Shown: in pieces, positions 4,294-19,434 of the stretch
Layout: the number at the start of each line of letters is the position of its first letter
Position numbering within the stretch: the stretch's first letter is position 1
DNA from: a virus
Reading direction: 5' to 3' (one strand)
DNA length: 34,231 nucleotides
Virus record (IMG/VR): IMGVR_UViG_3300031840_000845
Location: 1-34,231 of that record
Made by a program: the position numbers and the translations under genes
Notes under the pieces: generated by a model
What the model saw: the letters and a program-made list of their open reading frames with translations, nothing else
Told to the model about the DNA's origin: nothing
Database searches by the model: none

Positions 4294-4304
4294 TTATAAT
4301 TAGT
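4294..4304 (-). promoter_or_regulatory. ACTA-N-TTAT motif, probable late promoter for the neck genes
   Basis: The sense strand reads ACTAATTATAA, 19 bases before the ATG at 4275, and is followed by GATAGGAGG. If it acts as a -10-type element, the leader is only about ten bases and begins close to the ribosome site. It is one of eight near-identical sites. Confidence 0.5.
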
Positions 4305-4317
4305 AAGGAGAGTGCCT

Positions 4318-4677: not shown

Positions 4678-4698
4678 AAGGGCCTCCTATTTTTACTT

Positions 4699-4709
4699 AT
4701 ATAAGTAGT
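4699..4709 (-). promoter_or_regulatory. ACTA-N-TTAT motif, probable late promoter for the basic protein gene
   Basis: The sense strand reads ACTACTTATAT, 22 bases before the ATG at 4677 and just downstream of the 4722-4745 terminator, so one unit ends and the next begins here. TAGGAGG follows as the ribosome site. Confidence 0.5.
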
Positions 4710-4721
4710 CTAGCAAATAAA

Positions 4722-4745
4722 AAGCCCTCTGTTAACAGAGGGCTT
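4722..4745 (-). terminator. Strong intrinsic terminator after the decoration-like gene
   Basis: The sequence forms a perfect 10-base-pair stem (AAGCCCTCTG / CAGAGGGCTT) with a TTAA loop. On the minus strand it is followed by TTTATTT. It lies 33 bases after the stop codon of the 4778-5236 gene. Confidence 0.88.
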
Positions 4746-4777
4746 GATATTGATAAGGCTTAAAGTTGAATTACTTA

Positions 4778-5236
4778 TTAGGTACCTTCGACTACGGCAG
4801 CGGACCCAGAAGCAAGGACCTGGCCATAAAAATTAGTACCGTCGCAGACTAGCTCTAGAGCGTCGCCCTTCTTACATGCGGAAAGGTCAAACCGAAGACC
4901 ACCAGCAGCTGCATAGTGCTGAACGTTTCCATCACCAGTCGCGTTTTCGCCAACCTGGACAGCCGCAATATTCTGCGAGTCTGCGTCACCAGCAGATGAT
5001 GTAATTGTAACGTCACCACCAGTGATTTCTCTAACTATGAACTTAGCCCACCAGCCAGAGCCTGCGTCGGCAGCGCTTGGTAGCGTCATAGTAAAACTAG
5101 CCGAGTGGTTTCCAGCAGTAGCTGTTCCCGAGCTAATAGTAAAAATTGTGCCGCAATCTGCAACATCAATTGTTTTTGCCGCCGTTACATTTTCAACCTT
5201 TTTTCTATCGGCGCTGTATCTTCCTAACTTACTCAT
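4778..5236 (-). CDS. Small virion protein, possibly capsid decoration (unassigned)
   Basis: This protein has 152 residues and is rich in Ala, Gly, Ser and Thr, with many short predicted beta-strands (TIFTISSGTATAGNHSASFT, DVTITSSAGDADS). There is no signal or membrane segment. It forms a one-gene unit: an ACTA-N-TTAT motif and a leader hairpin lie upstream, and a strong terminator lies downstream. That isolation, immediately after the major capsid gene, fits a highly expressed head decoration or head-fiber protein. The central GWWAKFIVREITGG segment recalls lipocalin- or jelly-roll-like strands, but I cannot assign a family. Confidence 0.7.
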   Translation of the reverse strand: MSKLGRYSADRKKVENVTAAKTIDVADCGTIFTISSGTATAGNHSASFTMTLPSAADAGSGWWAKFIVREITGGDVTITSSAGDADSQNIAAVQVGENATGDGNVQHYAAAGGLRFDLSACKKGDALELVCDGTNFYGQVLASGSAAVVEGT

Positions 5237-5256
5237 GTTCGTTTTCTCCTTTTTAA

Positions 5257-5271
5257 AAGGCTAGTAGCCTT
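5257..5271 (-). promoter_or_regulatory. Leader hairpin before the decoration-like gene
   Basis: AAGGCT-ACT-AGCCTT forms a perfect 6-base-pair hairpin inside the putative leader, between the ACTA-N-TTAT motif and the AAAAGGAG ribosome site. It is followed by TTTT. It could protect the 5' end, act as a weak attenuator or expose the ribosome site. Its function is unknown. Confidence 0.45.
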
Positions 5272-5280
5272 ATCAATCAT

Positions 5281-5291
5281 AATAAATAGTA
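5281..5291 (-). promoter_or_regulatory. ACTA-N-TTAT motif, probable late promoter for the decoration-like gene
   Basis: The sense strand reads ACTATTTATT then ATGATTG. It sits 45 bases before the ATG at 5236, between the major capsid terminator and the leader hairpin. Confidence 0.5.
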
Positions 5292-5320
5292 AACTCTTCT
5301 TTTAAATTCCAAAATAAAAA

Positions 5321-5348
5321 CCCCGCCAAGAGAAAACTCAAGGCGGGG
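5321..5348 (-). terminator. Intrinsic terminator after the major capsid gene
   Basis: CCCCGCC pairs with GGCGGGG across a 14-base loop that contains a smaller GAG/CTC pairing. On the minus strand it is followed by TTTTTATTTT. It lies about 36 bases past the capsid gene stop. Confidence 0.88.
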
Positions 5349-5384
5349 CTTATTTTAGTCACCTAGATGGTCGCCTAGGACTTC

Positions 5385-7088
5385 TTAGCTAGCACCTGCT
5401 TCGCCAAGGAGACCGCGAACAACGACTAATCCGTACATATCAGGACGGACCATCTTCTTAGCGTAACGGGTCATGACGCCCTTACGTGGCACGAAGTCTT
5501 CCGTACCGAAGATGGTAGGAGTAACCTGTAGTGGCACATATGGAGCGTAAACGTATCCGCTTTCTAGGAAGCTTCCACCCTTACGGCCGACGAGAACGAG
5601 GTTTCTTGGGAAGTAAGGATCGACGTGGACGTCGAACTTACGTGAAAGAGAACCAACATTCACAGCACCAACGGAGCCGCTGTCGGAGTCATGGGTAACG
5701 TTAGCGCGGAATCCAGCAGTGAACTCCATGATGTTAGCAACTTCTGGTGATGTTACCAGGAAGTTAGCTCCACCGCGGAGAGTCTTTCTGTGGATCTGAG
5801 CCGACATGTCGTTAATGGTCTCAACAAGAGTCTCGTACCACTCGCTAACTGTACCAGTGAAGTCTGGGGCAGCAGCAGTGGCGCCAAGCTCAAGACCGGT
5901 CTCTCTGTCAACAAAGAGGCCAGGTGAACGCGACCAGTAATAAGTACCAGCGGTTGCATCTTGGATAAGATCATTGAGAATCTCACGATCGATTTCAAGG
6001 GCGACCTGCTCAGAAAGAATCTGAGTAAGCTCAACTTCAGCATCAAGATTGTGATATGCGTTGAGATCTTGACCAAGCTCTGGGGACCACTTGGCCTTGA
6101 GCTTCTTGGTCATCGCGGTAACAGCGATGCTGTCAACCTTGATGTCGATCTCGGCAATCTCATTCTTGTTGGTCGTTGAACCAGCGTTGCCAGTGCCTGG
6201 AGTTGGCTCTTCAAGAGGCCAGTTGTCAGCACCAACAACGGATCCGATAGCGACGCCGGCGTTGAAGTTGTCCTCAACAGCATAGCTAACGCCAAATCCG
6301 CCGGCTTCGGTGTTGTCGGAGCCATCGGGCGCAAGAACTGTAATTGTAACTGTATCGCCATCAACACTAGTGAGTCGACGAACAATTTCGTCATCACCAA
6401 CAGAAGAAGTAAAGTTTAGAGTTCCAAGAGCCTCGCGGTTGAGGTCCGTAGGAGCGGTAAACGTAAACTGCGCGACTGTAGCAGTGGCCTTGTCAGTTCT
6501 GTTAAGAAGATCCGGATCGAATCGAACCAACTTCTTTTGAGCTTCAGAAAGGCTGCTGATCACAGTCTGCGGAAGGGCAGCAACCGCTGCTAGCGTAACA
6601 GTGCTAGAAGCAGTGGCATGCGAGTATCCATTCGCAAGGTTGTAGAAACCACCACCAGTTTCCTTGATGTCACTGACACCGCCGGTGATCTGCGATGCAA
6701 CAACTCCACCACCATACACGGATCCGCCAGCAACGGAGCCAGCGCGAGCGAGGTTAGTAGTAAAATCGAGGAAGAAGATGAGTCCAGAAGGAAGGCTCAT
6801 TGGCTGAACCGACACAAGGTCGTTTGCCAGGAGTCCACCAAAGACTCGGCGAACGATTGGGAACGCTACGGAAGCGAAACCTTCAACGTCGCCTGCGGCC
6901 ATCGACGAGGCCTCTTTAAGAAGCTGCGCGGCCTGGTTTTCGAGAAGACGGGCCATTCCGTTCTTCTGCTGATCGCTATCAAGTCCTTCAAGAAGTCCAG
7001 TAGCTTCCCACTTATCCATTAGGGCAGCACCTTCTCTCTGGAGGGATCTATCAACGATACCTTCAGTTAATTTTTCTAAAACAGACAT
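5385..7088 (-). CDS. Major capsid protein (T4 gp23-like)
   Basis: This protein has 567 residues, close to T4 gp23 in size. The strongest signature is FPIVRRVFGGLLANDLVSVQ followed by PMSLPSGLIFFLDF (residues 76-109), the conserved N-arm/HK97-fold entry of gp23 proteins. A likely prohead-protease site, LLKE|A at residues 56-60, matches the T4 gp21 rule (L/I-x-E before a small residue). This would remove a ~59-residue N-terminal piece and leave a mature chain of about 508. The C-terminal part has the usual gp23 features (FVPRKGVMTRYAKKMVRPD). It lies directly after the scaffold gene and ends at a strong terminator, as expected for the most abundant late protein. It has an AGGAG ribosome site. 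Confidence 0.95.
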   Translation of the reverse strand: MSVLEKLTEGIVDRSLQREGAALMDKWEATGLLEGLDSDQQKNGMARLLENQAAQLLKEASSMAAGDVEGFASVAFPIVRRVFGGLLANDLVSVQPMSLPSGLIFFLDFTTNLARAGSVAGGSVYGGGVVASQITGGVSDIKETGGGFYNLANGYSHATASSTVTLAAVAALPQTVISSLSEAQKKLVRFDPDLLNRTDKATATVAQFTFTAPTDLNREALGTLNFTSSVGDDEIVRRLTSVDGDTVTITVLAPDGSDNTEAGGFGVSYAVEDNFNAGVAIGSVVGADNWPLEEPTPGTGNAGSTTNKNEIAEIDIKVDSIAVTAMTKKLKAKWSPELGQDLNAYHNLDAEVELTQILSEQVALEIDREILNDLIQDATAGTYYWSRSPGLFVDRETGLELGATAAAPDFTGTVSEWYETLVETINDMSAQIHRKTLRGGANFLVTSPEVANIMEFTAGFRANVTHDSDSGSVGAVNVGSLSRKFDVHVDPYFPRNLVLVGRKGGSFLESGYVYAPYVPLQVTPTIFGTEDFVPRKGVMTRYAKKMVRPDMYGLVVVRGLLGEAGAS

Positions 7089-7101
7089 TATTTTAATCTC
7101 C

Positions 7102-7111
7102 TATAATTTAT
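7102..7111 (-). promoter_or_regulatory. Degenerate late-promoter-like motif before the capsid gene
   Basis: The sense strand reads ATAAATTATA, 14 bases before the capsid ATG. It matches the ACTA-N-TTATA pattern at 8 of 10 positions. It overlaps the last base of the scaffold stop codon. This is a weak candidate. Confidence 0.25.
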
Positions 7112-8208
7112 TAATCTTTGTCTATTCCGGCTAGGAATTTCCAACGGTTTAACGTTGGGTTTGAAGTTTCTCTGCTTTGTTGTTGTTTTCTAGCAGATAA
7201 AATTACCGAAGACGACTTTTGTACTGCCTCACTCAGTGAATTTGGCTGCGTTTTACTTGAGGTGCTGCCCACTGTGTTTTGAAGTGTCTCAAAAATTACT
7301 TTTGCCTCTTCGATGGTTTCGGCGTTTGAAATAGCTTCGGCAAGCTTCTGCTTTTGCCGCTCATTTAAGGAGTCGCTGTCCAATGCCTTATTTTGATAAA
7401 GCAACTTTGCATTTGTTATATTTGCTTTGTCAAGTTTTTCTTCTAAAACTGCAACTGCTTTTTGAAGTTTTAGAGCAATGTTTCTTGTTTTTTCTAGTGT
7501 TTCGTGAAGCGCTTGAGCTTCCTGTTCTTTTGATTCGTTTATATCTGTTAGTTTTTTGACAGCTGCGCGTAGGGCTGCTTTCTCTTCTCTAACTTTAGAA
7601 TCTTGTTCCAGCGCCAGAAGCTCTTCTTCGGCTAATTCAATTTCACCTTCGCTTATACATGCCCAGCCACGCTTCTTTGGCTGGATATCAACCTCCAGGC
7701 CTTCTAGCTGTAGTTCATCTAGATCTTCGTCGAGATCTTCGTCGAGATCCTCAAATAAGTCTAGATCTTCGTCCAGGTCCTCATCGAGATCTTCATATAA
7801 GTCTAGGTCTTCGTCTAGATCTTCAGCAATATCTTCGGGTCCGAGATCTTTTTCGTCCAGGGACTCCTCATTTAAAAGGTCGACTTCTTCTAGCAGTCTG
7901 TCTAGTGGAATTTCAATTTGGTCGTCGTCACTAGCAGTGGCCGCAAATGGAATATGTTCCATAACAGAAGAGACAGTATCTTGTGCTTCACCTGGGGCCA
8001 TGTCCATGGTGTCTGCCTCTGCTGCCTCTGGTGTTAGCCCTAGTTCAGAGTCTAAATTCAGGTCACCCTCTTCTTGCTCTAGAAGAGTCTCGATCGACTC
8101 TTTGATCTGGCTAGAGTATTTTTCTAAAATTAAAGTTTCTGCGTTTTTAGTCGCTGCCTCGCGAAGGGCTTCAGCATCGATGATCGCTTGTTCTAACATA
8201 TCTGACAT
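7111..8208 (-). CDS. Prohead scaffold / core protein (T4 gp22-like) with acidic EDLD repeats
   Basis: This protein has 365 residues, is very acidic and mostly helical. It sits immediately before the major capsid gene, the position of gp22 in T4-type phages. The N-terminus is helical (IIDAEALREAATKNAETLIL). Residues 129-165 are a chain of EDLDEDLD units, and the C-terminal half is a long coiled coil (KLTDINESKEQEAQALHETL onward). The end, LNRWKFLAGI, resembles the conserved C-terminal tail of marine T4-like scaffold proteins. In the family the scaffold fills the prohead, directs shell assembly and is then degraded by the prohead protease. It has an ACTA-N-TTAT motif 30 bases upstream. Confidence 0.82.
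   Translation of the reverse strand: MSDMLEQAIIDAEALREAATKNAETLILEKYSSQIKESIETLLEQEEGDLNLDSELGLTPEAAEADTMDMAPGEAQDTVSSVMEHIPFAATASDDDQIEIPLDRLLEEVDLLNEESLDEKDLGPEDIAEDLDEDLDLYEDLDEDLDEDLDLFEDLDEDLDEDLDELQLEGLEVDIQPKKRGWACISEGEIELAEEELLALEQDSKVREEKAALRAAVKKLTDINESKEQEAQALHETLEKTRNIALKLQKAVAVLEEKLDKANITNAKLLYQNKALDSDSLNERQKQKLAEAISNAETIEEAKVIFETLQNTVGSTSSKTQPNSLSEAVQKSSSVILSARKQQQSRETSNPTLNRWKFLAGIDKD
7714..7824 (-). repeat. Tandem repeats encoding EDLD units in the scaffold gene
   Basis: On the sense strand, short GAAGATCTCGACGA-type units repeat. They encode a 14-residue period (LYEDLDEDLDEDLD, then LFEDLDEDLDEDLD) built from 4-residue EDLD subunits. The stretch is in frame and uninterrupted, with synonymous variation between copies. 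Confidence 0.85.
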
Positions 8209-8237
8209 TTATATTGCTCCTAGAAGGCTATTTGTCA

Positions 8238-8248
8238 TAATAACTAGT
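8238..8248 (-). promoter_or_regulatory. ACTA-N-TTAT motif, probable late promoter for scaffold and capsid genes
   Basis: The sense strand reads ACTAGTTATTA, 30 bases before the scaffold ATG at 8208, in the 70-base gap after the fiber gene. It would drive scaffold plus major capsid up to the 5321-5348 terminator. Confidence 0.5.
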
Positions 8249-8278
8249 CACAAACTAATGAAAAATCCTGTTTTATGA

Positions 8279-11200
8279 TTACGGGTTAGCGGCGCCGAGT
8301 GGTGACGGGTTGAAATACACCAATACATCGCCGCCATCGTCATCGATCGCATGGCCGACAGCGCGGACAAACTCGCCACTTGAACTAGGTGGCGTAAAGT
8401 CAAAATGGCCGGCTGTGGTGGAAACATAAACGGGCAGTCCGTCGACAGCACCTGAGCCTGGCACATTAAGTATTTCTGTCGAAGGAATGCGCACAAAGCC
8501 GCGCAATAAGACGCCAACTTGTTGCGAACTACCTGCGAAACCTACTGCCAAAAGCTGGTTTCCGCCAGTAGACATCGCGCTGCCGTCAGCCTGATCCCAC
8601 GTGCCATCTGTGTGGAGAAAGTAAATTTGCCCTGCTGTTAAAGTGTCATTCGCTCCCGGGGAGTAAATTAGTCTTTCGCCGCCGCCTTCGCCGTCTGAAA
8701 GTTGATTTTCAAAAGTGACCAATTGATAATTGCTGGTCGTAGAGAACACAACTTTAGGATCAAAATCGTTTACACCAACCCTGCCGTTAAGTTTTGTGAT
8801 TGTCGACCCATTTCCAAAACCGCCAATATCAATAGTCGAGCCAGACAGGACCATTCCAGCTGAAGACCCTGAAATTACTAGCAGGTTATCGCCATTTTCA
8901 TTATATTCTATGTGCGATTCTTCGCTGTCTCCAAAATATAGCTTCTGGTCGTCTGGAATCAAACCCCCTACGGAAGATGTAAAGTTTGTGTTAAGTGTTA
9001 ACCCAGTGGTTGTTGTTAAAACGAAAGGATCTGTGTCTGCAAAACTCCCGAAACCAGATTTTATATGGAAAGTTTCATTCGAGCCCATGTTTCCGACTGA
9101 CCACTTTGAACTACCGTTGCTCATGAAAGTAAACTGTGTGTCGCCGTTGGCCGTGGTGTTGTCAATGTTGACTCTGCAATAGTCTGAATCGCCTGATTTA
9201 AATGTCGCAATCAGGCCATTCGTTGTGTTTGCCGCGGAGGCGTTTACAACAAGGATGCCAGAGGCTTTCGAGGCTGAATTGTCCTCGCCGATACCCAACT
9301 TTTCAGGTATGCGGACAAAATTGCCGGAAAGCACAGTGCCATTTGGCGAAGAACCGGAAATAACCAAAAATCCATCGCCTTCTTCGTTGTGGAATATTCT
9401 TGCTTTCGCTGAGCCCGATGTGGCGAAGCCTAGGCCTGAATTCCCGCCGCCGACAGCGTTAATTGCTGGGCCGCGAGTTACTCCTGACGGAACTAGATAT
9501 AAAAATTGATTACCAGACTGATCGCTAAACTGGCCAGTGTTGTTGTGCTTCATATTAATCTTGAATTCAACACTGCCGCTAAGCTGGCCTGAAAGCGAGC
9601 CGGTAATATCTAAATCGTCGTGCACATTAAAAGTTGTGCCGTCATAAGTCAAGCTAGCTTCTGCTGTAGCGGTACCGTCTCCGTCTGACGTCAAAAGCCT
9701 GTTGTTGCCATCACTAGCTATAACTTCTGAAAGGTTGACTTTCAGCTGACTGCTGGCGACATCGAGTCCATCTCCAGATATTGCAGTTAGCAAGTCTCCT
9801 ATTGCATCTTGCTTTGTACTGCCATCGGAATCTAAAAATATAAATGAATCTAATTTGTCAACTGCGCCGACAGGAATGTCAGTACCAGTTATGGGCGTCA
9901 AAATTACTTTGCCCGTGTAGTCAACAGCCAACAAGCTTCCAGGGCCGGCCATAGAGCCACTTCCCACTGTAGTCGAATCTAATACAATCTTTGAACCAGA
10001 TAGCACCATGCCTGTTTTGGACCCTGAAATAACAAGCAGGTTGTCAGCAGTTTCTCTATATTTTATGAAAGCGTCGTTTTGAGTTCCAAAGTAAAGAGGG
10101 AGATCATCATTTATTCTTGCGTCATCATTAATAACAAATGTTGTGCCGTTGTATGTTAAATTGGCTTCCCCATCTAAATCAGTTGTTGTTGAACCTAAAG
10201 TTACCAGACGACTTTCAGCTTGGTTGTTAATCGCAGTTACTGTACCCACAGAAGAAGTTAAAACAACTTGTCCAGTAGAGTTAACTGCCAAGAAGCTTCC
10301 TAAGCCCGCGATAGAACCAGACGCGACGGTGCCAGAATCTAACACTAATTTTGATCCAGACAAAACCATGCCGGTAGCGGAGCCAGAAATAATCAAAAGA
10401 TTGTCACCATTTTCATTATATTCTATGTGTGCATCTGGCAATTGTCCAAAATAAAGCTTTTTGTCATCGTCCAGTTTAATATTTCCACTAAACTGCAGAT
10501 CGTTTGCGTCAATTGTCGCAATGTCTGACCCGCCAACTTCTATTTTAAGGATGTTGTCGGCTGACGCGCGTATGGAAGTCGTGGCAGCACCATCAAAATC
10601 GATACGGCCCTGGCCGTTGAGATCTATGTCATCGACATAAAGCTTTCGCCACGCATGTGTTCCATTGCGCCCGAGATCATGGGCGCTGTCAGCAGCTGGC
10701 AACACTCCGTTTAAAGAAGAGCTTAAGACAATATATTGACCAGCAGTCCCAATTGTCAGGCCGGAAGTGTTGTTTGCTGTTATTGTAGATACATCATTGG
10801 CGTCATCGCCCTGGTCAGCGTTCATGGTTATGACTACCGCGCCAGCCTCTCCGCCTGTTAATGTTATGCCAGAACCGCTCGCTTGTAGTGTGCCGGTAAG
10901 CAACAAGTTGTTATTATTGTAGTCAAATGTGAGATTTTCGCTTCCGCTCAAAACAGAGCCGGAAGAAAATACTAGATGTTTGTTGTTGGCAGATCCCATG
11001 TGGAAAGACGAAGAGCTAAGGTCGCCGACCACTATCGAAGCAATTGTGTCTTCAAAAGCCAGCCTTTGCCAAGTACCAGATCCACCGCCGGCAGATGCGG
11101 AATAAATGCACCAGTCATTTACACTCCAGCTAGAGTGTCCGTCGATATTGATTGACCCAGCGCCGGTGACCTGCCAGTAATCACCTGCAGATGCCGTAAG

Positions 11201-11362
11201 ATTTGTTGGTGTTCCGTGGGCGCCGCTAACGAGCAGACCTGTATATGCACCTGCTGGGGCGCCAGGGAGGCCTGATCCGGAACCAGCGTTTGTGCTAGCA
11301 TTCCAGTACCCCTGAAATCTTGCGGCGCCTAAATACGCTATGCTCCCCGATGCTGTTGGCAT
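8279..11362 (-). CDS. Large repeat-containing virion fiber / adhesin-like protein
   Basis: This protein has 1027 residues, is rich in Ser, Gly and Thr, and has no signal peptide. The first ~110 residues (FQGYWNASTNAGSGSG, SAGDYWQVTGAGSINIDG, WSVNDWCIYSASAG, WQRL) look like the N-terminal module of many phage fibers, which places a small beta domain before the shaft. At least three imperfect repeats of about 45-75 residues follow, with core LYFG..(D/E)(A/S)xI.Y.E..DNLL(I/V)ISGS..GMVLSGS, plus a degenerate copy. The last ~120 residues form another beta-rich module ending in VLVYFNPS. Its place among head-assembly genes, not tail genes, suggests a head-attached fiber or decoration. A tail fiber is also possible. 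It lies 15 bases after the preceding gene, with an AGGAG ribosome site. Confidence 0.75.
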   Translation of the reverse strand: MPTASGSIAYLGAARFQGYWNASTNAGSGSGLPGAPAGAYTGLLVSGAHGTPTNLTASAGDYWQVTGAGSINIDGHSSWSVNDWCIYSASAGGGSGTWQRLAFEDTIASIVVGDLSSSSFHMGSANNKHLVFSSGSVLSGSENLTFDYNNNNLLLTGTLQASGSGITLTGGEAGAVVITMNADQGDDANDVSTITANNTSGLTIGTAGQYIVLSSSLNGVLPAADSAHDLGRNGTHAWRKLYVDDIDLNGQGRIDFDGAATTSIRASADNILKIEVGGSDIATIDANDLQFSGNIKLDDDKKLYFGQLPDAHIEYNENGDNLLIISGSATGMVLSGSKLVLDSGTVASGSIAGLGSFLAVNSTGQVVLTSSVGTVTAINNQAESRLVTLGSTTTDLDGEANLTYNGTTFVINDDARINDDLPLYFGTQNDAFIKYRETADNLLVISGSKTGMVLSGSKIVLDSTTVGSGSMAGPGSLLAVDYTGKVILTPITGTDIPVGAVDKLDSFIFLDSDGSTKQDAIGDLLTAISGDGLDVASSQLKVNLSEVIASDGNNRLLTSDGDGTATAEASLTYDGTTFNVHDDLDITGSLSGQLSGSVEFKINMKHNNTGQFSDQSGNQFLYLVPSGVTRGPAINAVGGGNSGLGFATSGSAKARIFHNEEGDGFLVISGSSPNGTVLSGNFVRIPEKLGIGEDNSASKASGILVVNASAANTTNGLIATFKSGDSDYCRVNIDNTTANGDTQFTFMSNGSSKWSVGNMGSNETFHIKSGFGSFADTDPFVLTTTTGLTLNTNFTSSVGGLIPDDQKLYFGDSEESHIEYNENGDNLLVISGSSAGMVLSGSTIDIGGFGNGSTITKLNGRVGVNDFDPKVVFSTTSNYQLVTFENQLSDGEGGGERLIYSPGANDTLTAGQIYFLHTDGTWDQADGSAMSTGGNQLLAVGFAGSSQQVGVLLRGFVRIPSTEILNVPGSGAVDGLPVYVSTTAGHFDFTPPSSSGEFVRAVGHAIDDDGGDVLVYFNPSPLGAANP
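8820..8960 (-). repeat. Fiber repeat, copy C (truncated)
   Basis: This copy encodes the LYFGDSEESHIEYNENGD to GMVLSGS unit. It lacks the second half (LAV..TG.V.LT) found in copies A and B. Boundaries are approximate. Confidence 0.7.
9884..10111 (-). repeat. Fiber repeat, copy B
   Basis: This copy encodes LYFGTQNDAFIKYRETADN through GMVLSGSKIVLDS and LLAVDYTGKVILT. It aligns with copy A over about 75 residues without large gaps. Boundaries are approximate. Confidence 0.75.
10250..10471 (-). repeat. Fiber repeat, copy A
   Basis: This copy encodes LYFGQLPDAHIEYNENGDN through GMVLSGSKLVLDS and FLAVNSTGQVVLT. It is closest to copy B in the second half and to copy C in the first half (both have HIEYNENGDNLL). 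Boundaries are approximate. Confidence 0.75.
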
Positions 11363-11377
11363 TCATAAACTCCTGTG

Positions 11378-11836
11378 TTAAAAAGTGCTACACGCCGCAT
11401 AAACATTAGATTCATCATCATCGCCAACAAAAGCGACCCGGTCGACGCCAGCAATTTCATAAACTCTATATTCACGATCGCTTGGCACCTGGGCCGACTC
11501 GGCGCGACCCGAGTTAGCGGCGGAGACGGCCGTCGCGGTTGGGGCCGAATTTGCACCTACAGGATCAAAACTTTGTGGAATTTCAAACCACTTTTCAAAA
11601 GCATGACAATAACCAAAAACGTTTATGTTTCCAGGAGTGCCAGACCCGTTTGCGTCCGTCACAAGAAGATGCAAAAACCTTTGATTTTCTGTGGCGTATC
11701 CTACTAGTTTGTAACCAGCGTTGCTTGAACGTAAGTTGTCGGTGTTTGCCTCTAGGGTCACCACGGTGCCGGGATCGCCAGCTATGTTTTTGGGGCTTCT
11801 TGTTCGTCCCCAACTATTATGCCTGTGTACAGCCAT
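11378..11836 (-). CDS. Small virion-type protein of unknown function
   Basis: This protein has 152 residues, is mostly beta by composition, and has no signal or membrane segment. The N-terminus is basic (MAVHRHNSWGRTRSPKN). The middle has RFLHLLVTDANGSGTPGNIN and a GYCHAFEKWFEI segment, and the C-terminus is acidic with VAFVGDDDES. I do not recognise a family. It is translated directly after the bS21-like gene (no gap) and just before the large fiber gene, inside the head-assembly cluster. A minor capsid or fiber-attachment role is a guess from position only. Confidence 0.65.
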   Translation of the reverse strand: MAVHRHNSWGRTRSPKNIAGDPGTVVTLEANTDNLRSSNAGYKLVGYATENQRFLHLLVTDANGSGTPGNINVFGYCHAFEKWFEIPQSFDPVGANSAPTATAVSAANSGRAESAQVPSDREYRVYEIAGVDRVAFVGDDDESNVYAACSTF

Positions 11837-12091
11837 TTATCTTCTCCTGCTTTTTTTGTTTTTGGTATCTAAAGCCTTATTCCTGTTCGCCTCGGCTTTT
11901 TGTGCATTCTTTAGCTTCTTTATTTTTTCTCTTCTTCTTTTTGTAGAGGCTTTTGTAAAGAATCTTTTATCTAAATAGTCTTCTATAATTCTTTCTTTTT
12001 TGCATTTTTTAGTGAACTTTCGTATTAGTTTGTTGACGTCACCTTTGGTTTGTTTTATATGAACCTCGACGTTATAAGCTTTAGACATCAT
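11837..12091 (-). CDS. rpsU-like: Ribosomal protein bS21 homolog encoded by the phage
   Basis: This protein has 84 residues and is strongly basic. After a short beta start (YNVEVHIKQ), the core follows the bS21 pattern: a helix with LIRKFTKKCKKERII (bS21 has RRFKRxCEKxGxL), then Y..KRFFTKASTKRRREK (bS21 has RxFYEKPxxxRKRxK), then a Lys/Arg-rich tail. In bacteria bS21 sits near the anti-Shine-Dalgarno end of 16S rRNA and helps initiation. bS21 genes are known in some marine phages. A phage copy may enter host ribosomes and favour phage mRNAs. The gene overlaps the preceding one by 11 bases, has a GAGGGG ribosome site, and lies in the late head-gene unit. Confidence 0.82.
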   Translation of the reverse strand: MMSKAYNVEVHIKQTKGDVNKLIRKFTKKCKKERIIEDYLDKRFFTKASTKRRREKIKKLKNAQKAEANRNKALDTKNKKSRRR

Positions 12092-12473
12092 CCCCTCCAG
12101 CTAGCTTTTTCCATTTTCCCTTGGCGATCGCCTGAATTGCTGTTATGTCAACGCCAGCATCAGTGGGGGCAACCCCAGCCAAAGGGCCAGCCTGATTTGT
12201 TTCTGGTATATGCTGTACACCCTCAAAAACATTGACATTTTTTAATTTAGTCGACTCGTTCAGCTTTTTAATTCTCTGCTGCCTTTGGCGCTCATATTGC
12301 TCTTCTGATAAGCGCGCGTCATTCGGCTGTGTCTTGTTCTCTACTAGGGGTGCTTGCAAGCCGGTTGCGACTTCAGAAACAATTTTTGATAGCACGCCTT
12401 CTTGTAGTAGGACCTCTTTTACAGTCTGCTCTATTAAAGGCTTTAGTATCTTTTTAAATTCACTAACTTTCAT
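12081..12473 (-). CDS. Small prohead-core-like protein (unassigned)
   Basis: This protein has 130 residues. The N-terminal ~40 residues form an amphipathic helix (MKVSEFKKILKPLIEQTVKE), the middle is charged and Gln/Arg-rich (LSEEQYERQRQQRIKKL), and the C-terminus is Gly/Ala-rich. It directly follows the prohead protease (1-base gap). T4 encodes the small core proteins gp67 and gp68 near the protease, and a similar role is plausible. LLQE|G at about residues 22-26 fits the T4 protease cleavage rule, which would support it being processed inside the prohead. No database family is recognised, so the function is inferred from position. Confidence 0.6.
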   Translation of the reverse strand: MKVSEFKKILKPLIEQTVKEVLLQEGVLSKIVSEVATGLQAPLVENKTQPNDARLSEEQYERQRQQRIKKLNESTKLKNVNVFEGVQHIPETNQAGPLAGVAPTDAGVDITAIQAIAKGKWKKLAGGDDV

Positions 12474-12474
12474 T

Positions 12475-13122
12475 TTAATCTCTCAGTATTGAATCAATTA
12501 AAGAATCAATTTTATTATCTTTTCCTTCGGAAATATATTTGTTAATCGTCTCGCCTACACCGACAGAGACTCCGACAGACACTCCGGCTCCTCGCTGGGG
12601 CGACAAAAAGGCATTCGGCGTTGAAGGTTCTGAAACCATGTCAAAACAAATCAGCTGGAAGTCGTCTTCAACAATAGTATTACCTTTTTCTTGTTTTACA
12701 GAACCCATCCCACGAGAAGAAATGCCAAGCTTAATCCCAGATTTGACCAGTTCTTTAAGAATTTTGCCCGAGGGTGTGTCTAAAACTTCTATTTTACCCA
12801 TAACGTTATCTCCGTCCCACCACATTTTTGTTACTAAATGCGACGCGTTCTTAAGATTTATTACACTATCGTCTGGATGGTCTAGCTCACCAAGAGAGCG
12901 GCGCTCTTTAATTGCTTTCTGGTAGTTTTCGACTTCCCTTTGTAGGGTTTCCTTGCGATATATCCTGCCGTTGCCGTTTTTTGTGCCGGCTTTTTGACAA
13001 ATACCAACGAGATAAACAGCGCCGTTAGAAATGTTTCTCTTTTCGGCTTCAGTTAATCGCTCCACAGGACAACGACCCTCTGGACAAAGCTCAAAATATT
13101 CTCTAAGAAGGTCTTTTGACAT
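12475..13122 (-). CDS. Prohead core protease (T4 gp21-like, peptidase S80 type)
   Basis: This protein has 215 residues, similar to T4 gp21. The family hallmarks are NGNGRIYRKETL (residues 49-60), GELDHPDD with the candidate catalytic His82, and LGISSRGMGS with the candidate nucleophile Ser135 or Ser136, followed by F.LICFDMVSEPSTPNA around Asp161. In the family the protease sits in the scaffold core, activates itself, trims the major capsid and core proteins after E in (L/I)-x-E sites, and clears the prohead for DNA. It is followed by a short VSVGVSVGVG stretch near residue 181. It overlaps the end of a 41-residue gene by 20 bases. Matching cleavage sites are visible in the capsid protein here. 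Confidence 0.9.
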   Translation of the reverse strand: MSKDLLREYFELCPEGRCPVERLTEAEKRNISNGAVYLVGICQKAGTKNGNGRIYRKETLQREVENYQKAIKERRSLGELDHPDDSVINLKNASHLVTKMWWDGDNVMGKIEVLDTPSGKILKELVKSGIKLGISSRGMGSVKQEKGNTIVEDDFQLICFDMVSEPSTPNAFLSPQRGAGVSVGVSVGVGETINKYISEGKDNKIDSLIDSILRD

Positions 13123-13228
13123 TTTTCTTCCTCACAACTCCATAGCCGTTATATTGGTTCGCTGCTCTTTTAGGATTTTTCATTCCCCAAACATACGAAG
13201 ACGGACTATTTTTAGTTTTTGGTTTCAT
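13103..13228 (-). CDS. 41-residue basic microprotein, unknown function
   Basis: This is a short frame from ATG at 13228 to TAG at 13103. The product begins MKPKTKNSPSSYVWGMKNPK and ends in a KKNVKRPS tail. It is basic, with no membrane segment. A good ribosome site (TTTTGGAG, about 8 bases before ATG) and the 20-base overlap with the protease start support real, coupled translation. It fills the only sizeable gap (183 bases) between the DUF1360-like gene and the protease. The peptide is too short to assign. It could be a small core protein or only a translational leader for the protease. Confidence 0.5.
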   Translation of the reverse strand: MKPKTKNSPSSYVWGMKNPKRAANQYNGYGVVRKKNVKRPS

Positions 13229-13244
13229 GTTTTCTCCAAAACTT

Positions 13245-13265
13245 AAGCGAGGCTCACCCTCGCTT
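13245..13265 (-). terminator. Hairpin between the DUF1360-like gene and the protease unit, possibly bidirectional
   Basis: AAGCGAGG and CCTCGCTT form a perfect 8-base-pair stem with a 5-base loop. On the minus strand it is followed by AAGTTTTGG, where the GTTTT can extend pairing with AAAAC on the other side across two unpaired A residues. On the plus strand it is followed by GTTTTTG, so it looks at least as good in that direction. The short T run makes full termination of the head operon uncertain. Confidence 0.55.
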
Positions 13266-13305
13266 GTTTTTGCTACCATTACAGCAACGTCTTACTTCTG
13301 GAATG

Positions 13306-13632
13306 TTACAGCGTCTCATTTTTCATCACCTCCTCGTGAGTTTTTTTAATTTTTAAGCCAAAGTCGTCCAAAACAGAGCTTATAAAGTAACTAGTCCCAG
13401 CCGACAGGCTGCCCAAAAGCAAACCATTTATTAAATTGTAGCTAAATGTAAATAGTTCCGTTTGTGAGTTGATACTCCACAAAAATACGCCGACCCAAAA
13501 CCCCGTGCAAAGGGGGCACTTAAATAGTTCGCCCAGCTTGCCTTTTTTAGGGCGCACAGAATTGAATATAGAGCCATATATCAAGATATATGTCATTCCA
13601 TAGGCACATAAGATAAAATATAATAAGCCCAC
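13306..13632 (-). CDS. Small membrane protein with DUF1360-like CPLC motif
   Basis: This protein has 108 residues with an N-terminal membrane helix (LLYFILCAYGMTYILIYGSI), a loop with KCPLCTGFWVGVFLW, and one or two further hydrophobic segments (LINGLLLGSLSAGTSYFISS). The CPxCxGFWxG signature followed by a membrane helix is what I associate with the DUF1360 family of small bacterial and phage membrane proteins, whose function is unknown. It lies inside the head-gene cluster between two unknown genes and a hairpin. The Cys pair could bind metal or form a disulfide. A link to the membrane stage of infection or to superinfection exclusion is speculation. Confidence 0.65.
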   Translation of the reverse strand: MGLLYFILCAYGMTYILIYGSIFNSVRPKKGKLGELFKCPLCTGFWVGVFLWSINSQTELFTFSYNLINGLLLGSLSAGTSYFISSVLDDFGLKIKKTHEEVMKNETL

Positions 13633-13639
13633 ATATCAC

Positions 13640-14170
13640 CTATAATCTGTAAATGCTGTGAATGCCGTACTTAACCATTCTCGGCGGAAGAGTGCCCTTG
13701 ACCGCAGCGTGGCGTGTTGGATCAAATTCTGTATACTCGTCAATTTCTGGTTCAAGCAGGTGCTCTTCCATGTCTTTCTTGTATTGCTCCATATTTTCAT
13801 AGTATGGAATTTCGTCTTCAATAAATTTTGACAAGACATAAAGACAGTATTGTATCTTATCTCCATCGCCGGTAGGCTCGGGGATTGTTGCCTCTTTCGT
13901 CATAAATAAATTTCCGTCTTGCACAGATTCGTAATCAACTACGCCTTTATTAACCAAAAAGTTAAACAATCTTTTTTGTGTATCGTATAGCTCATCATCT
14001 ATTTCATTTTTTGGAAGAGATACAATCTTGCTCTTTGTTGGGTTGATCATGATGTTTGTGTCTGGGTGGTCAAAAATTAAAATGTTGCCATCAATTGTTT
14101 TTCTGGCGTTCATCAAGATTTTTTCGATGTTCTCGCCAGTTTCTGAAACGATGTTAATTTTAATTGCCAT
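13640..14170 (-). CDS. Conserved-looking protein of unknown function next to the portal region
   Basis: This protein has 176 residues, is acidic and soluble. It has an N-terminal beta-strand segment (MAIKINIVSETGENIEKI), a central helical part and the C-terminal motif PPRMVKYGIHSIYRL. No known domain is recognised. It overlaps the preceding 269-residue gene by 11 bases, so the two are probably made together. Between portal and protease, T4 carries gp67/gp68 and cyanophages carry small unknown genes, so this may be an accessory head-assembly factor. That is position-based inference only. Confidence 0.65.
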   Translation of the reverse strand: MAIKINIVSETGENIEKILMNARKTIDGNILIFDHPDTNIMINPTKSKIVSLPKNEIDDELYDTQKRLFNFLVNKGVVDYESVQDGNLFMTKEATIPEPTGDGDKIQYCLYVLSKFIEDEIPYYENMEQYKKDMEEHLLEPEIDEYTEFDPTRHAAVKGTLPPRMVKYGIHSIYRL

Positions 14171-14969
14171 TATCTAATTCATCCACCAAAGACTGTATCT
14201 TAATTATCTCTGAGATGGCCTTTCTATCAATTTTTTTGTTTTGGTACTGCTCAACCTTTTCCAAAACTAGTTCTAATTTTGCTGGATGTTCAGCCGATTC
14301 TAGCTTTTCGGCTAATTTATCTTTTAGACGTGATAGCTCTTCGTACAGAAACGCTGAAAATTCCAAGCCTTCGTCTTTATAAGATGTTATATATTCTTTC
14401 AACAGCCTTTTTTGAGATTCGTTTAGGGACTCGGAATACTTTTCGTTAAATTTGCCAAGAAAAGTTTTTAATGCTAGCTTATTAACTGATGGGAATGGCT
14501 GCTTTTCTATTTTTTCCGGCTGCGTAAGCATAGAGATTAGCCTTTGCTCCACAAAAACTTGCTTTTTTGGGTTGTGCTTACCACTAACAACTTGGTTAAC
14601 TGTAGCTAGCTTTTTGTAGTTAGAAACAAAATTATTCCAGACCTGAAGGCCCAGTGTTTTATTGATTTCGTTGATAATCTTTGTCTGCTCACTATACAGA
14701 GAGGCTTCGTCTTGTTGCTGTATCTGTCTTTTGGATTCATTGATTATTTTTTCCACCAATTCAGCAGGGGAGCCCTCCAAGGCATCAAATGACTTATAAA
14801 CCTCAAGCTCTTCTTTTAGAGGGCAGCCCTTGTGAAAATATTTTCTTAAAATATTCATCGCTGCTTGTTTTCGATCAGGCTGGTCGTGCATGCTGGCTTT
14901 TGAAACCTCGCTAACCAGCACTTCAAATATAAATGCAGTGTTTCTCTTCTTATTATGCTTCAGCTTCAT
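14160..14969 (-). CDS. Mostly helical protein of unknown function after the portal gene
   Basis: This protein has 269 residues and starts MKLKHNKKRNTAFIFEVLV, a basic start followed by helices. Most of the chain is predicted helical and charged, with coiled-coil stretches (RLKDKLAEKLESAEHPAKLE). No catalytic motif, signal or membrane segment is visible. It overlaps the portal gene by 17 bases and the next gene by 11, so it is part of one translationally linked set. A prohead core or portal-associated role would fit its place, but I cannot support it from the sequence. Confidence 0.65.
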   Translation of the reverse strand: MKLKHNKKRNTAFIFEVLVSEVSKASMHDQPDRKQAAMNILRKYFHKGCPLKEELEVYKSFDALEGSPAELVEKIINESKRQIQQQDEASLYSEQTKIINEINKTLGLQVWNNFVSNYKKLATVNQVVSGKHNPKKQVFVEQRLISMLTQPEKIEKQPFPSVNKLALKTFLGKFNEKYSESLNESQKRLLKEYITSYKDEGLEFSAFLYEELSRLKDKLAEKLESAEHPAKLELVLEKVEQYQNKKIDRKAISEIIKIQSLVDELDNGN

Positions 14970-16944
14970 CTTTTGTGGTCTCCAATTTATTTAATGAATC
15001 AATCAAATCCTTTACTTCTTTGCGCTCTCTTAACAACTCTTGTTCCTGCTCGTCATAGTAATTAGATGTTTGCTGTTCAGACATTCTGTATATAGATGAA
15101 ACATCGTCTTTGCCAGGAAAAATAGACTTTGTAGAAGTTCCGATATATCTCTGGCCTCCTTGTGACAAGAAGGCCTGACTTGCGCCTTGACGACGATCAG
15201 ATTGAACCTTTCTATAATACTTGTCCTTTGACCTGGCCGTGGTTGTTAACTTGTTGCCTAGGCTATCTCTCTTCTTGTCATCTTTCTTACCGGGTGGTGG
15301 TGGAGGCGTTTCTGCGGCGCCAGCATCAGGAGCCGGGGCCCCGGGGGTTGCTAAAAGTGGCCCGGTATCCTCCGGCGTCGGTTCCGGAGTCGGCTCTGGT
15401 GTTGGGGTGTCTGGGGTTGGTGCCGCAGCGTCGGTCGCGTCAGGCGTAAGTCCCGCTGCACCGCCGGCTCCGCCGGCAAGGGCCTCGCCGACTTGTTCGA
15501 GCAAGAAGGCATGTTTCCTGTCGTAGAACATCTCTGACTGCATTCTCTGGAATTCTTCCTCGTTAACATTTAAGATGTTCTTGGAAACCCATCTTCTACT
15601 GAAGTAGTTGCTGTTCGTGGCTGCATCAGCAGCATCAAATCTAGACTTCCAATGTTCTAGCTCTTGTAGTTCTGCCAACCTAGACGGGTTATTTAAGGAC
15701 AGCTTGAATGAAAGAAGGTCATTGCCCCTATAGCCTAGTGTAAACAGGTGAATAATTGTTATCTTCTCAAGCTCTGAAACAACAGACCGCTGAAGCCTCT
15801 GAATTGTTCGCGCAAATCTAATATCCTTTTGCGCCAATGTCGACTTGTCTTCGTCGTTACCGTCTCCACGAGATAGGTACGACATTGGGATCTTAAGCGC
15901 GCTGAACAGCTTGTCTCTTAAATACTTAACATCGTCAATATCACCAGTATACTGGCCTGATTTTACAGTATCAATTTTTGTACCGCTTGTTCCGCCGCGC
16001 ACCGGTATGTAATAGTCTTCTTCAACGCTAAATGGATTATAGCGGAGATCGACGCGTCCTGAATCGACATCAACAATTTGGTTTCTCTTCATTTGTGTCA
16101 TGACTCTCTGCATATATTGTTCAACGTCTTCTGGAGGAATTCCGCCAACATCAATATAAAACACGCGGCGATCTGGAGATCTAACAATGCGATATGCCAT
16201 CACAGCGTCTTCAAGCAATGTCAGCTGCCGCCAAATTCTTCGGGCTCCGTCTAACACCGATGTACCATATGGGGCAAATTTGTCGTTGCCTAGTATTCTA
16301 AAGTGGCCCATTTGCCAATTTTCTAATGTCAAACCGGCTGTGTTCCATTGATATTGAATATAATTTGGGTTGTTTTTGTCTTCGCCCTCTAATCTTTCTA
16401 TCTCGTTGGCGGGCAGGCCAATTGTATTCTTGATACCTTCGTCTTGCTCGATATCAAGATATAAAAAGAAATCACCATATTTGCACATTGAGCGGCACCA
16501 GCCATATAAATTAAACTGGATATTTAACACATTATAAAGCAACGTTTCGATTACGGATTTTATTTCCTGGTTTGTGCAAACGATATCTACGATAGGCCTA
16601 TAGACTGAAAAAGTCGTCATCTCGTCTGCGTAGATGTCAAGTGCCGATGAGATTTCTGGCGTGTACTCCATTTGATCGAAATCAGCGTACCTATCCATTC
16701 TATTTTGGTTCTGGTAGTAGTCGGATCTTAACGAGCTGTATACGTCCTCATAAGCCGACATCTTGAATTCTTGGCCACTCGCTGATCTAAAGCGCGACTT
16801 GTACTTGTCGAGCTGTCTTTTTTTGAGTTGCCTCGTGTCTTGTCTTCTGTACTTTACAAGAGGGCCAGACAGAAGCTTTGTTAGTTGTTTGAACAGCCCA
16901 CTATCTGGGTTTCTTACGTTCTTTCTATTTTTTGGTGGCGCCAT
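14953..16944 (-). CDS. Portal protein (T4 gp20-like) with a Pro/Thr/Ala-rich insertion
   Basis: This protein has 663 residues; T4 gp20 is about 520. Family features include EYTPEISSALDIYADEMTTF (around residue 91), the YGDFFLYLDI segment, ILGNDKFAPYGTSVLDGAR and SPDRRVFYIDVGGIPPEDV, and a stem-like helical region with DEDKSTLAQKDIRFARTIQR. Twelve copies form the vertex through which DNA enters and leaves, and the terminase docks there. Residues ~491-552 are a low-complexity Pro/Thr/Ala/Glu linker (TPEPTPEPTPE, TPPPPPG) before a charged, partly helical C-terminal domain of ~100 residues. That makes this portal longer than usual. It lies 3 bases after the terminase gene. Confidence 0.92.
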   Translation of the reverse strand: MAPPKNRKNVRNPDSGLFKQLTKLLSGPLVKYRRQDTRQLKKRQLDKYKSRFRSASGQEFKMSAYEDVYSSLRSDYYQNQNRMDRYADFDQMEYTPEISSALDIYADEMTTFSVYRPIVDIVCTNQEIKSVIETLLYNVLNIQFNLYGWCRSMCKYGDFFLYLDIEQDEGIKNTIGLPANEIERLEGEDKNNPNYIQYQWNTAGLTLENWQMGHFRILGNDKFAPYGTSVLDGARRIWRQLTLLEDAVMAYRIVRSPDRRVFYIDVGGIPPEDVEQYMQRVMTQMKRNQIVDVDSGRVDLRYNPFSVEEDYYIPVRGGTSGTKIDTVKSGQYTGDIDDVKYLRDKLFSALKIPMSYLSRGDGNDEDKSTLAQKDIRFARTIQRLQRSVVSELEKITIIHLFTLGYRGNDLLSFKLSLNNPSRLAELQELEHWKSRFDAADAATNSNYFSRRWVSKNILNVNEEEFQRMQSEMFYDRKHAFLLEQVGEALAGGAGGAAGLTPDATDAAAPTPDTPTPEPTPEPTPEDTGPLLATPGAPAPDAGAAETPPPPPGKKDDKKRDSLGNKLTTTARSKDKYYRKVQSDRRQGASQAFLSQGGQRYIGTSTKSIFPGKDDVSSIYRMSEQQTSNYYDEQEQELLRERKEVKDLIDSLNKLETTKDEAEA
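15289..15474 (-). repeat. GC-rich low-complexity tract encoding the portal linker
   Basis: The tract is built from repeated CCxACxCC/GCx codons that encode PTP, EPTPEPTPE, AAAP and PPPPP. Base composition is clearly richer in G+C than the flanking AT-rich coding sequence. It is in frame and uninterrupted. Confidence 0.8.
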
Positions 16945-16947
16945 GTT

Positions 16948-18519
16948 TTATCCCTTAATCAACCAAACGAAATCTTTATAGTTTTTTTCGTTTTGTTTTT
17001 TTTGTTTTTCCTTATATGCTAACATACCAGGTATGCTTGTGTTAAGCTCTGAATTGGTTGAGCGCATTGCTCCAAGAAATGCTTTCTTATATTCAACCGC
17101 TCTTTGATTTGAACTGTAAACTGTCTCCTTCACCCAACAACCTATAGCGCAAGCCATAATTAAGTCGTCATTATGCTTTTTCATAGCTTGTGGACGACCA
17201 TTTTCCCAGACAAATGTCTTCATCTCATTGAAAAGGCGTTTTGATTTTATAGTAATTAGTTTATTTCTTATCAATTCCTCTAACTTGGAGATAGTTAGCG
17301 GTCGTGTTTTTGACGAGGTTGTAAAACCAGGAATTACGCCAGCGTTTTCTGACAGGTAGGCCTCGACATGCTCATGAGAAGATTTTCTAGAATAGTATAA
17401 ATTTCCATATCCTAAATCTTCCAATCTAGTAAGCACTCCCCAGCCAACAGAATTGTTTTCTACAACCAACATACACTCACCGTATTCTTTGCCGGTTTGG
17501 TGTAGGATCTCCGCAAAAACGTCTGGCGTAGGCTTGCCTTGGTATTCAGCAACTATTTCAGAATTTTGTATATTAAAGATATGAAAAGTAGAGTAGTCTT
17601 TCCCATCGCCCCTTGCAACGTCAGCTGATATCATATAATCTGCGCCTGGCTTGTACTCTTCCCAAATCCACAAATTTCTATCGAAGCCGGTCTTATATTT
17701 TGGTTCACATAAATTTTGTTCAATGATTTCCATATCTTCTGGATGAAAAACTGTTTCTCCAGACATGTTGAAATTGCATTCAAGCTCCTGGGCTATTTGG
17801 CGCCTCGACATGTTTCTTGTTTCTTTTTCAAACCATTCCCTGTCGCGGTCTGGATGTACATCCCATGGTAAAGTCACCAAATAAAAATCGTTTTTTTCGA
17901 TCTCGGCGTCAACACAAGTTTGGTGAAACCAATTGCCAACACCGTTTGGCGTGGAAAGAGCGATGCATCGGCCACCAGTTGATAGTGTTGGATACAGGCC
18001 GGTCCATAATTCTTCTAGGCCGTCAACGTGGGCAGCCTCGTCAATAACCAGCAATGAAAGTGCTTCTGAACGACCAGCGTCTGAACTGGTCGACGACGCT
18101 TTGATTTGCGAGCCATTTGTTAATTCAAAGCTGGTTCTATTGTCGATCGATATGTTGGCTATCTTCATCCACTCCGGCAAATGTTTGTGGATTGCTTTAA
18201 CTTTTTTAACCAAGTTGGCGGCTGTGCCGAATTTGGTAGCAATGACCAGAACATTTTTATCACGATGGAACATCATCATCCAAGCAACATACGCTGCCGT
18301 AATGGTGGAAATACCAAGCTGGCGGGCTTTTAGTATTATGTTAAAGCGGTGATCGTTAAAATTCTCAATAAGATCAGTTTGAAAATCATAAGTGCTAAAA
18401 GGAATCAAACCTTTTAAAGGGTGTGAAATTTTTGCATAGTTATTTATAAAGTACACCGGGTCCTTGCCAGACCTCACTACTTCTTTTAATATTTCCTCTT
18501 TAGATAAAGAGTAAGACAT
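16948..18519 (-). CDS. Terminase large subunit (T4 gp17-like)
   Basis: This protein has 523 residues. The ATPase half shows a Walker A-like motif KARQLGIST (residues 64-72), Walker B LLVIDE (156-161) and the coupling motif STPNG (189-193). The nuclease half has the RNase H-type acidic residues: ISADVARGDGKDYS with Asp300, LVVENNSVG with Glu354, and HNDDLIMACAIG with Asp451/452. In the family it pumps phage DNA into the prohead through the portal and cuts concatemers. It is slightly shorter than T4 gp17 (610) but has all core motifs. It follows a 190-residue unknown gene by 2 bases and directly precedes the portal gene. Confidence 0.95.
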   Translation of the reverse strand: MSYSLSKEEILKEVVRSGKDPVYFINNYAKISHPLKGLIPFSTYDFQTDLIENFNDHRFNIILKARQLGISTITAAYVAWMMMFHRDKNVLVIATKFGTAANLVKKVKAIHKHLPEWMKIANISIDNRTSFELTNGSQIKASSTSSDAGRSEALSLLVIDEAAHVDGLEELWTGLYPTLSTGGRCIALSTPNGVGNWFHQTCVDAEIEKNDFYLVTLPWDVHPDRDREWFEKETRNMSRRQIAQELECNFNMSGETVFHPEDMEIIEQNLCEPKYKTGFDRNLWIWEEYKPGADYMISADVARGDGKDYSTFHIFNIQNSEIVAEYQGKPTPDVFAEILHQTGKEYGECMLVVENNSVGWGVLTRLEDLGYGNLYYSRKSSHEHVEAYLSENAGVIPGFTTSSKTRPLTISKLEELIRNKLITIKSKRLFNEMKTFVWENGRPQAMKKHNDDLIMACAIGCWVKETVYSSNQRAVEYKKAFLGAMRSTNSELNTSIPGMLAYKEKQKKQNEKNYKDFVWLIKG

Positions 18520-18521
18520 TA

Positions 18522-19058
18522 CTACGCTTCGGCTTTGCGCGTATCATTTGGGGCTTTCTTGTCTGAAGACTGCTCTAGAAAGCTTTTGAACGTAGCTTCT
18601 AATTTGTCTTCCGACGGCCCCTTGACGTCTTCAGCATCGCCCATGTTACCGATTTCATAGTCTTTTCTGGCTGTGACAAAAACTCGGACACGGCTAGTTG
18701 ATTCGACTCTTGCGTCGCACTCGCCCTTTTCTTTTAATGATAGAGTATTACCAGTTATCTTTTTGTATTCTTTCTTCAGATAACTGACTATATCCGACAT
18801 GGTTTGTTCCAATTCGCTTTCTAGATTACCACTGTAAACATCCTTCAAAAGAAGTTCAGAATGATAAGAAAGGTGCAAAGTCTTTCCACTGCAACGTACG
18901 GAACAACCGTCAATTGTTCTCTTATCTAGGAGAGGATTGCCCTCCTCTCTTTTAAGCCCAATCTTAATTGGCTCGCCGTTCTCATCAATGGCGCCATCGT
19001 ACATATTCCCAGCAGCTTGAGAAATTCCTTTAAGTATATCAACTACTTTTTGTGACAT
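18522..19058 (-). CDS. Unknown protein immediately before the terminase (candidate small subunit position)
   Basis: With ATG at 19058 the protein has 178 residues. I chose this start because GGAG lies about 8 bases upstream. An in-frame GTG at 19094 would add 12 residues and a longer overlap with the preceding gene. The N-terminus is helical (MSQKVVDILKGISQAAGNMY). A middle segment has GCSVRCSGKTLHLSYHSELL, and further on is a helix plus a STSRVRVFVTARKDYEIG strand. The C-terminus is charged and disordered-looking. Small terminase subunits usually lie just upstream of the large one, but I see no helix-turn-helix and no clear coiled-coil oligomerisation core. The function is therefore open. 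Confidence 0.65.
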   Translation of the reverse strand: MSQKVVDILKGISQAAGNMYDGAIDENGEPIKIGLKREEGNPLLDKRTIDGCSVRCSGKTLHLSYHSELLLKDVYSGNLESELEQTMSDIVSYLKKEYKKITGNTLSLKEKGECDARVESTSRVRVFVTARKDYEIGNMGDAEDVKGPSEDKLEATFKSFLEQSSDKKAPNDTRKAEA

Positions 19059-19434
19059 TTTTTGGTCTCCAGCCGTCGAGCCATCTTTTTTCACGACCCT
19101 CGACGTATTTTATAAAACATTTTTCGCAACAATGAAATTTTGTATGATAAATGTCATCATTTATCGTTTTTAGTTTACTTTTGCAAGTAGAACAATTTAA
19201 AATTCCTTCTTTATTAAGTAGTTTACGACTAACTAAAACACCGTCAACATTCTCTACATCGTGAGACTGTTCAAATTTTTTTTGTTTTTCTACAAATTCT
19301 TCAAGTTGCTGTATGTAATCTTTCTCTTTTTCTTTGTCCCAGTGTTTGGCTGGATTTTCTATGGCTTCATCACCGTATTTTTTCTTTATAGCCTTCTCTA
19401 GGCCGGCTATATAATTTATATCTTTTTCTTTCAT
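19039..19434 (-). CDS. Small zinc-ribbon-like protein, unknown function
   Basis: This protein has 131 residues. The N-terminal part is helical and charged (INYIAGLEKAIKKKYGDEAI, then DYIQQLEEFVEKQKKFEQ). The C-terminal part has NCSTCKSKL and FHCCEKCFIKYVEGRE, that is CxxC separated by about 20 residues from CCxxC, a likely single zinc-binding site. Proteins of this layout lie near the terminase in other marine T4-like phages, to my knowledge without assigned function. It overlaps the preceding gene by 4 bases (ATGA-type) and the next by 20. A nucleic-acid or protein-binding adaptor is plausible. Confidence 0.7.
   Translation of the reverse strand: MKEKDINYIAGLEKAIKKKYGDEAIENPAKHWDKEKEKDYIQQLEEFVEKQKKFEQSHDVENVDGVLVSRKLLNKEGILNCSTCKSKLKTINDDIYHTKFHCCEKCFIKYVEGREKRWLDGWRPKNVTKSS

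Follow-up and report, generated by a model that had tools for sequence, protein, structure and literature searches.

A copy of the small ribosomal protein bS21 is encoded within the capsid-building gene cluster of a T4-like phage, probably a marine one. The DNA analysed, called the window below, is 34,231 nt long and spans positions 1 to 34,231 of IMG/VR virus record IMGVR_UViG_3300031840_000845. That the window encodes a genuine phage bS21 within a head operon, probably a late one, is well supported, as are three differences from the Bacteroidetes phage group described earlier: the gene lies on the same strand as the head genes, its product has no aromatic residue at the position of Tyr54, and the genes around it use Shine-Dalgarno (SD) sequences.

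Among ribosomal proteins encoded by viruses, bS21 is the most common. Its presence beside head genes and its late expression were already known, since Chen et al. 2022 (PMC9723584) report both. The coupling to the head operon, which a preliminary description of this DNA had singled out for attention, had been published: 47 genomes of Bacteroidetes phages have bS21 in the terminase-portal-protease-capsid region, and among 900 published genomes surveyed there the prohead protease (310) and capsid (154) were common neighbours of bS21, generally two to four genes off. The new element here is the constancy and tight linkage of bS21 within one phage group.

Identity and start of the bS21 gene

The preliminary description, made from the letters alone, had read an 84-residue product at 11837-12091 on the minus strand as bS21. 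The open reading frame and the quoted motifs are present there, and the profile search and structure prediction that it had suggested as checks found the bS21 family and the bS21 helices, respectively. The match to the curated Pfam profile Ribosomal_S21 (PF01165) scores 33 bits, above its cut-off of 27, and that to the curated NCBIfam profile S21p (TIGR00030) 31.3 bits, above 28.95. Together with the helices and the purifying selection seen in relatives, these matches confirm the window gene as a true, selected phage bS21. The protein also matches phrog_21469, ‘ribosomal protein S21’ (E 6e-4), and the best PDB chains by sequence are bS21 of bacteria, mitochondria and plastids. All 51 of the 51 relatives in a broad alignment match both PF01165 (E <= 0.01) and phrog_21469 (E <= 0.1). 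A tblastn search of 50,697 phage records with the window bS21 returned no match at E <= 0.01.

The AlphaFold2 model of bS21 has a pLDDT of 90.3 and helices at residues 18-31, 34-42 and 47-82; the sequence of Microcystis phage Mel-JY01 was left out of an alignment used for structure prediction. When the model was submitted to Foldseek, 10 of the 11 matches were ribosome chains, one from a chloroplast and the others mitochondrial. The top nine are mitochondrial small-subunit chains with TM scores of about 0.5-0.6, several of them chains named bS21m by sequence; the E-values are weak (0.2 or worse), as expected with a small helical protein. Relatives of the gene are under strong purifying selection, with a median dN/dS (NG86) of 0.098 and all 140 of 140 pairs below 0.5. 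The window protein, which is strongly basic (pI 10.7), shares with bacterial bS21 (rpsU) the two curated families, the three-helix layout and the basic C-terminal helix; it differs in having a KERII-type loop instead of K-x-G, a longer basic tail and a place in the phage-side group of a coarse tree.

The start region reads ctGGAGGggATGATG, with GGAGG located 5 nt 5' of the second ATG (12088), and most homologues begin at the residue equivalent to that ATG. For both reasons the second ATG is the likely start, giving a product of 83 residues. The first 8 nt of the gene then overlap the end of its upstream partner, gp130.

The head module in the window and in relatives

Placement in a head operon, also claimed in the preliminary description, is borne out by head proteins that score above cut-off (PF03420, PF07230, PF07068 and PF03237), all encoded on the minus strand. 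The order on that strand is TerL, portal, a 269-aa protein, a 176-aa protein, a DUF1360-like protein, protease, gp130, bS21, a 152-aa protein, a fibre-like protein, scaffold and major capsid protein (MCP); coordinates are listed in Table 1. The terminator-like site that is strongest on the minus strand within 4200-20600 lies at 4745-4722, past the capsid gene. This pattern and the layout fit one late operon, a pattern match being no proof of function.

Table 1. Features of the head module, with coordinates in the window
Feature	Coordinates	Strand	Basis or remark
Terminase large subunit (TerL)	16948..18519	-	PF03237 N-terminal domain over cut-off; phrog_2
Portal (T4 gp20-like)	14953..16944	-	PF07230, 269 bits
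Conserved head-module gene, 269 aa, no assigned function	14160..14969	-	Synteny with relatives
Conserved head-module gene, 176 aa, no assigned function	13640..14170	-	Synteny with relatives
DUF1360-like small protein	13306..13632	-	PF07098, 21.1 bits against 21; synteny
Prohead core protease (T4 gp21-like)	12475..13122	-	PF03420, 112.3 bits; phrog_207
gp130, upstream partner of bS21	12081..12473	-	Survey, alignment
SD GGAGG and first ATG (ctGGAGGgg ATG ATG)	12089..12100	-	Sequence, upstream scan
bS21 (rpsU-like)	11837..12088	-	83 aa from second ATG; ORF possibly from 12091
152-aa gene, no assigned function	11378..11836	-	ORF; 0 nt gap after bS21
Repetitive fibre-like protein, 1027 aa	8279..11362	-	Repeated motifs; partial homologues in relatives
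Probable scaffold / prohead core (T4 gp22-like, by position)	7111..8208	-	Before MCP; synteny
Major capsid protein MCP (T4 gp23-like)	5385..7088	-	PF07068, 238 bits

Several other features of the window were recorded. The DUF1360-like protein has a CPLCTGFWVG motif and is kept between portal and protease in relatives, and homologues of the 152-aa gene follow bS21 in three loci (L001, L010 and L011). The fibre-like protein contains repeated blocks, for example KLYFG..AHIEYNENGDNLLVISGS..GMVLSGS. Outside the head module, a single 1051-aa reading frame (20525-23680, minus strand) joins an Mre11/gp47-like metallophosphatase (PF00149 at residues 1-184) to a Rad50/gp46-like SMC ATPase part (PF02463 at 368-1045, below cut-off); these parts are two genes in T4.

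The first relatives were recruited through bS21 itself and were therefore biased for questions of gene order. For this reason, IMG/VR was searched a second time with the prohead protease, blind to bS21. The protease-seeded survey yielded 157 loci. In 132 of them bS21 was detected or the sequence continued for at least 1.2 kb downstream; selected for their resemblance to the query and including near-duplicates, they do not stand for 132 independent phages. The gene order, which the preliminary description had proposed to compare, is kept: bS21 occupies the same slot in 126 of the 132 loci and the same strand in all 126, always after the protease and, where a capsid gene is present, before it. 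Over both searches, 131 different phage bS21 sequences were collected. Among the six loci with no detected bS21, one has a divergent bS21-like reading frame in the slot, judged by eye (L075), another has no bS21 in about 1 kb of slot sequence (L096), and the others have little room or no gp130.

The partner gene is equally constant. All 126 loci with bS21 also have gp130, which in 113 of 120 measurable loci ends no more than 30 nt before the bS21 ATG or overlaps the start of bS21. In the T4-like marine phages Melnitz-3 and S-B64, the scaffold gene directly follows the protease, and thus gp130 and bS21 are a group-specific pair at this site. In Flavobacterium phage immuto the slot is without an annotated bS21, and the two small reading frames between its protease and scaffold are unlike bS21. 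Pfam and PHROG profile searches gave no clear family for gp130, and its predicted structure (pLDDT 63, pTM 0.24) was too weak to suggest a function. The gp130 family has a conserved N-terminal helix (LKPLIK..KEVLLEEGVLS) and a C-terminal GVDIS...WK motif. A limited literature search found no description of the tight coupling between gp130 and bS21.

Some loci show local variation. In two of them bS21 is extended at its N terminus by a basic stretch of about 30 aa (L026 at 5122-5499 and L030 at 6594-6983), and both have a gap of about 500 nt between gp130 and bS21. A third has an in-frame TGA in the protease gene, which may reflect a sequencing error or disruption of the gene (L029 at 4298-4834).

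The arrangement can be compared with three known systems. In the freshwater Bacteroidetes huge phages of Chen et al. 2022, as in the window, bS21 is found with TerL, portal, protease and MCP and adjoins a conserved hypothetical gene. However, bS21 and the head genes lie on opposite strands there and are not co-transcribed as one operon (PMC9723584), whereas the window gene is on the same strand and is coupled to the gp130 reading frame. In the isolated Microcystis phage Mel-JY01 (PP395634), whose host is known, a gene annotated as RpsU occupies the same slot and strand, in the order protease, 154-aa gene, bS21, probable scaffold and MCP, with only 21% identity to the window in bS21 and 43% in TerL. 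Pelagibacter phages HTVC008M and Mosig also encode bS21, of weak sequence similarity (a close relative of the window bS21, used as the query, gave E 3 and 0.8), but there its neighbours are cobS, hsp20, sliding clamp, clamp loader and regA.

Loop sequence, Shine-Dalgarno use and host

Most bS21 sequences of the group have KERII or KERIL in the loop, as against the bacterial K-x-G form. In the first 39 loci KCKKERII appeared to be invariant because this peptide had been the search seed; the survey blind to bS21 shows KVKKERIL, KFKKSGIL, KCKKLGII and others, so KCKKERII is not an invariant phage signature. A scan of 84,980 bacterial and archaeal species for [KR]KCKKERI found no bS21 and a single locus (L041), which was discarded as a candidate cellular donor since the match is an out-of-frame chance occurrence in a bacterial gene. 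In the tree, phage bS21 is split from the sampled bacteria with support of 99/100. The tree has few columns, and its bacteria come from a narrow set (20 genomes of the phylum Bacteroidota, E. coli and two partial PDB sequences); for these two reasons it cannot name a donor.

The late mRNAs of the phage have clear SD sequences, strongest at MCP. A core SD precedes 16 of 24 genes in the window, compared with 0 of 30 in immuto, and the mean pairing energy is -6.8 kcal/mol against -4.2 kcal/mol in shuffles. Across the group, 62 of 63 MCP genes have a core SD, with a mean of -9.8 kcal/mol. Strong capsid SDs are not tied to bS21, however, because Melnitz, whose head module lacks bS21, has one of -8.3 kcal/mol. 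A very strong SD (-13.3 kcal/mol) was seen before the TTG start of bS21 itself in Mosig (L223, 4998), within the range described for autoregulated Bacteroidota rpsU (PMC9976891).

Ribosomes of Bacteroidia block SD pairing, and Tyr54 of bS21 is important for this (PMC9976891). The corresponding residue is Lys in the window protein, whereas the phages of Chen et al. 2022, which have Bacteroidetes hosts and SD-less genes, keep an aromatic. In our alignment the column is aromatic, with one Tyr, in 1 of about 167 rows; as a control, 5 of 20 fetched bS21s of the phylum Bacteroidota have Tyr or His there. Given the SD-using genes and the lack of an aromatic at this position, a Bacteroidia host is unlikely. 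The gene psbA was considered as a sign of a cyanobacterial host and was found in 0 of 30 long contigs, which is weak negative evidence against such a host.

Possible roles of the phage protein

From the observed family, fold, selection, slot, reading-frame coupling, SD use and absence of an aromatic at Tyr54, we consider it probable that bS21 is produced along with the head proteins and takes over from host bS21 on the ribosomes of late infection, which would tune translation at that stage. Being on the same strand and overlapping the upstream reading frame, bS21 would be co-produced with the head-assembly proteins from a late operon. It would then probably occupy the 30S site of host bS21, close to the 16S rRNA 3' end, and the ribosome pool of late infection would initiate well on SD-bearing late mRNAs. 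Late expression in the window phage is a fair inference from the strand shared with the head genes, the overlapping reading frames and RNA data on other phages, whose bS21 is transcribed late, with late structural genes (PMC9723584). The preliminary description had taken a position beside capsid genes to imply late timing. This does not hold as a general rule, since HTVC008M and Mosig have bS21 among replication genes; head-operon placement, and by inference late timing, is limited to some lineages. Two observations count against the favoured reading: the strong MCP SD of Melnitz, and the near inactivity of E. coli ribosomes with a pelagiphage bS21 (PMC6375957). A literature search found no report of preference for phage mRNA by any phage bS21.

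The main rival is that the phage protein simply keeps 30S subunits replete while host rpsU is shut off, with no selectivity. Consistent with this, the core helices match cellular bS21, bS21 joins 30S biogenesis late and can leave mature ribosomes (PMC9976891), and ribosomes must stay active for a long time to make the late phage proteins. Pure supply does not, however, call for the change from K-x-G to KERII or KERIL, which drift could also have produced, nor for a [KR]KCKKERI pattern found in no bS21 of the species scanned, and we regard supply alone as rather unlikely. Doubtful, too, is a stronger form of the favoured reading, in which bS21 is a fixed late ribosome-specificity factor acting with gp130, the altered loop (KERII) and an ASD-permissive C-terminal part of bS21 favouring capsid mRNAs with strong SDs in SD-using hosts.

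A role in the virion or prohead core, with bS21 packaged or used in head assembly as a structural RNA- or DNA-binding protein or as cargo for the next host, is less likely. The high pI, the coupling to gp130 and the near-constant neighbourhood of protease, gp130 and scaffold would suit it, and delivery in the virion has been proposed as a possibility (PMC9723584), but ribosome-type conservation is kept in all relatives matched to PF01165, pelagiphage bS21 genes lie outside the head module, and no capsid-targeting sequence was recognised by eye. It is very improbable that phage bS21 poisons host translation instead of redirecting it: HTVC008M bS21 enters E. coli ribosomes and leaves about 5% activity in vitro (Mizuno et al. 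2019, PMC6375957, which also reports purifying selection), but this severe loss may be cross-species incompatibility, according to those authors, and bS21 would be produced alongside the most abundant late proteins, whose synthesis depends on active ribosomes.

A group of phages with near-universal bS21, one partner gene, one late operon and an SD background offers a clean test of specialised ribosomes outside Bacteroidia, and gp130 is a concrete new lead for pursuing it. If bS21 did act as a ribosome-specificity factor of this kind, its effect would run opposite to the blocking of the ASD known from Bacteroidia.
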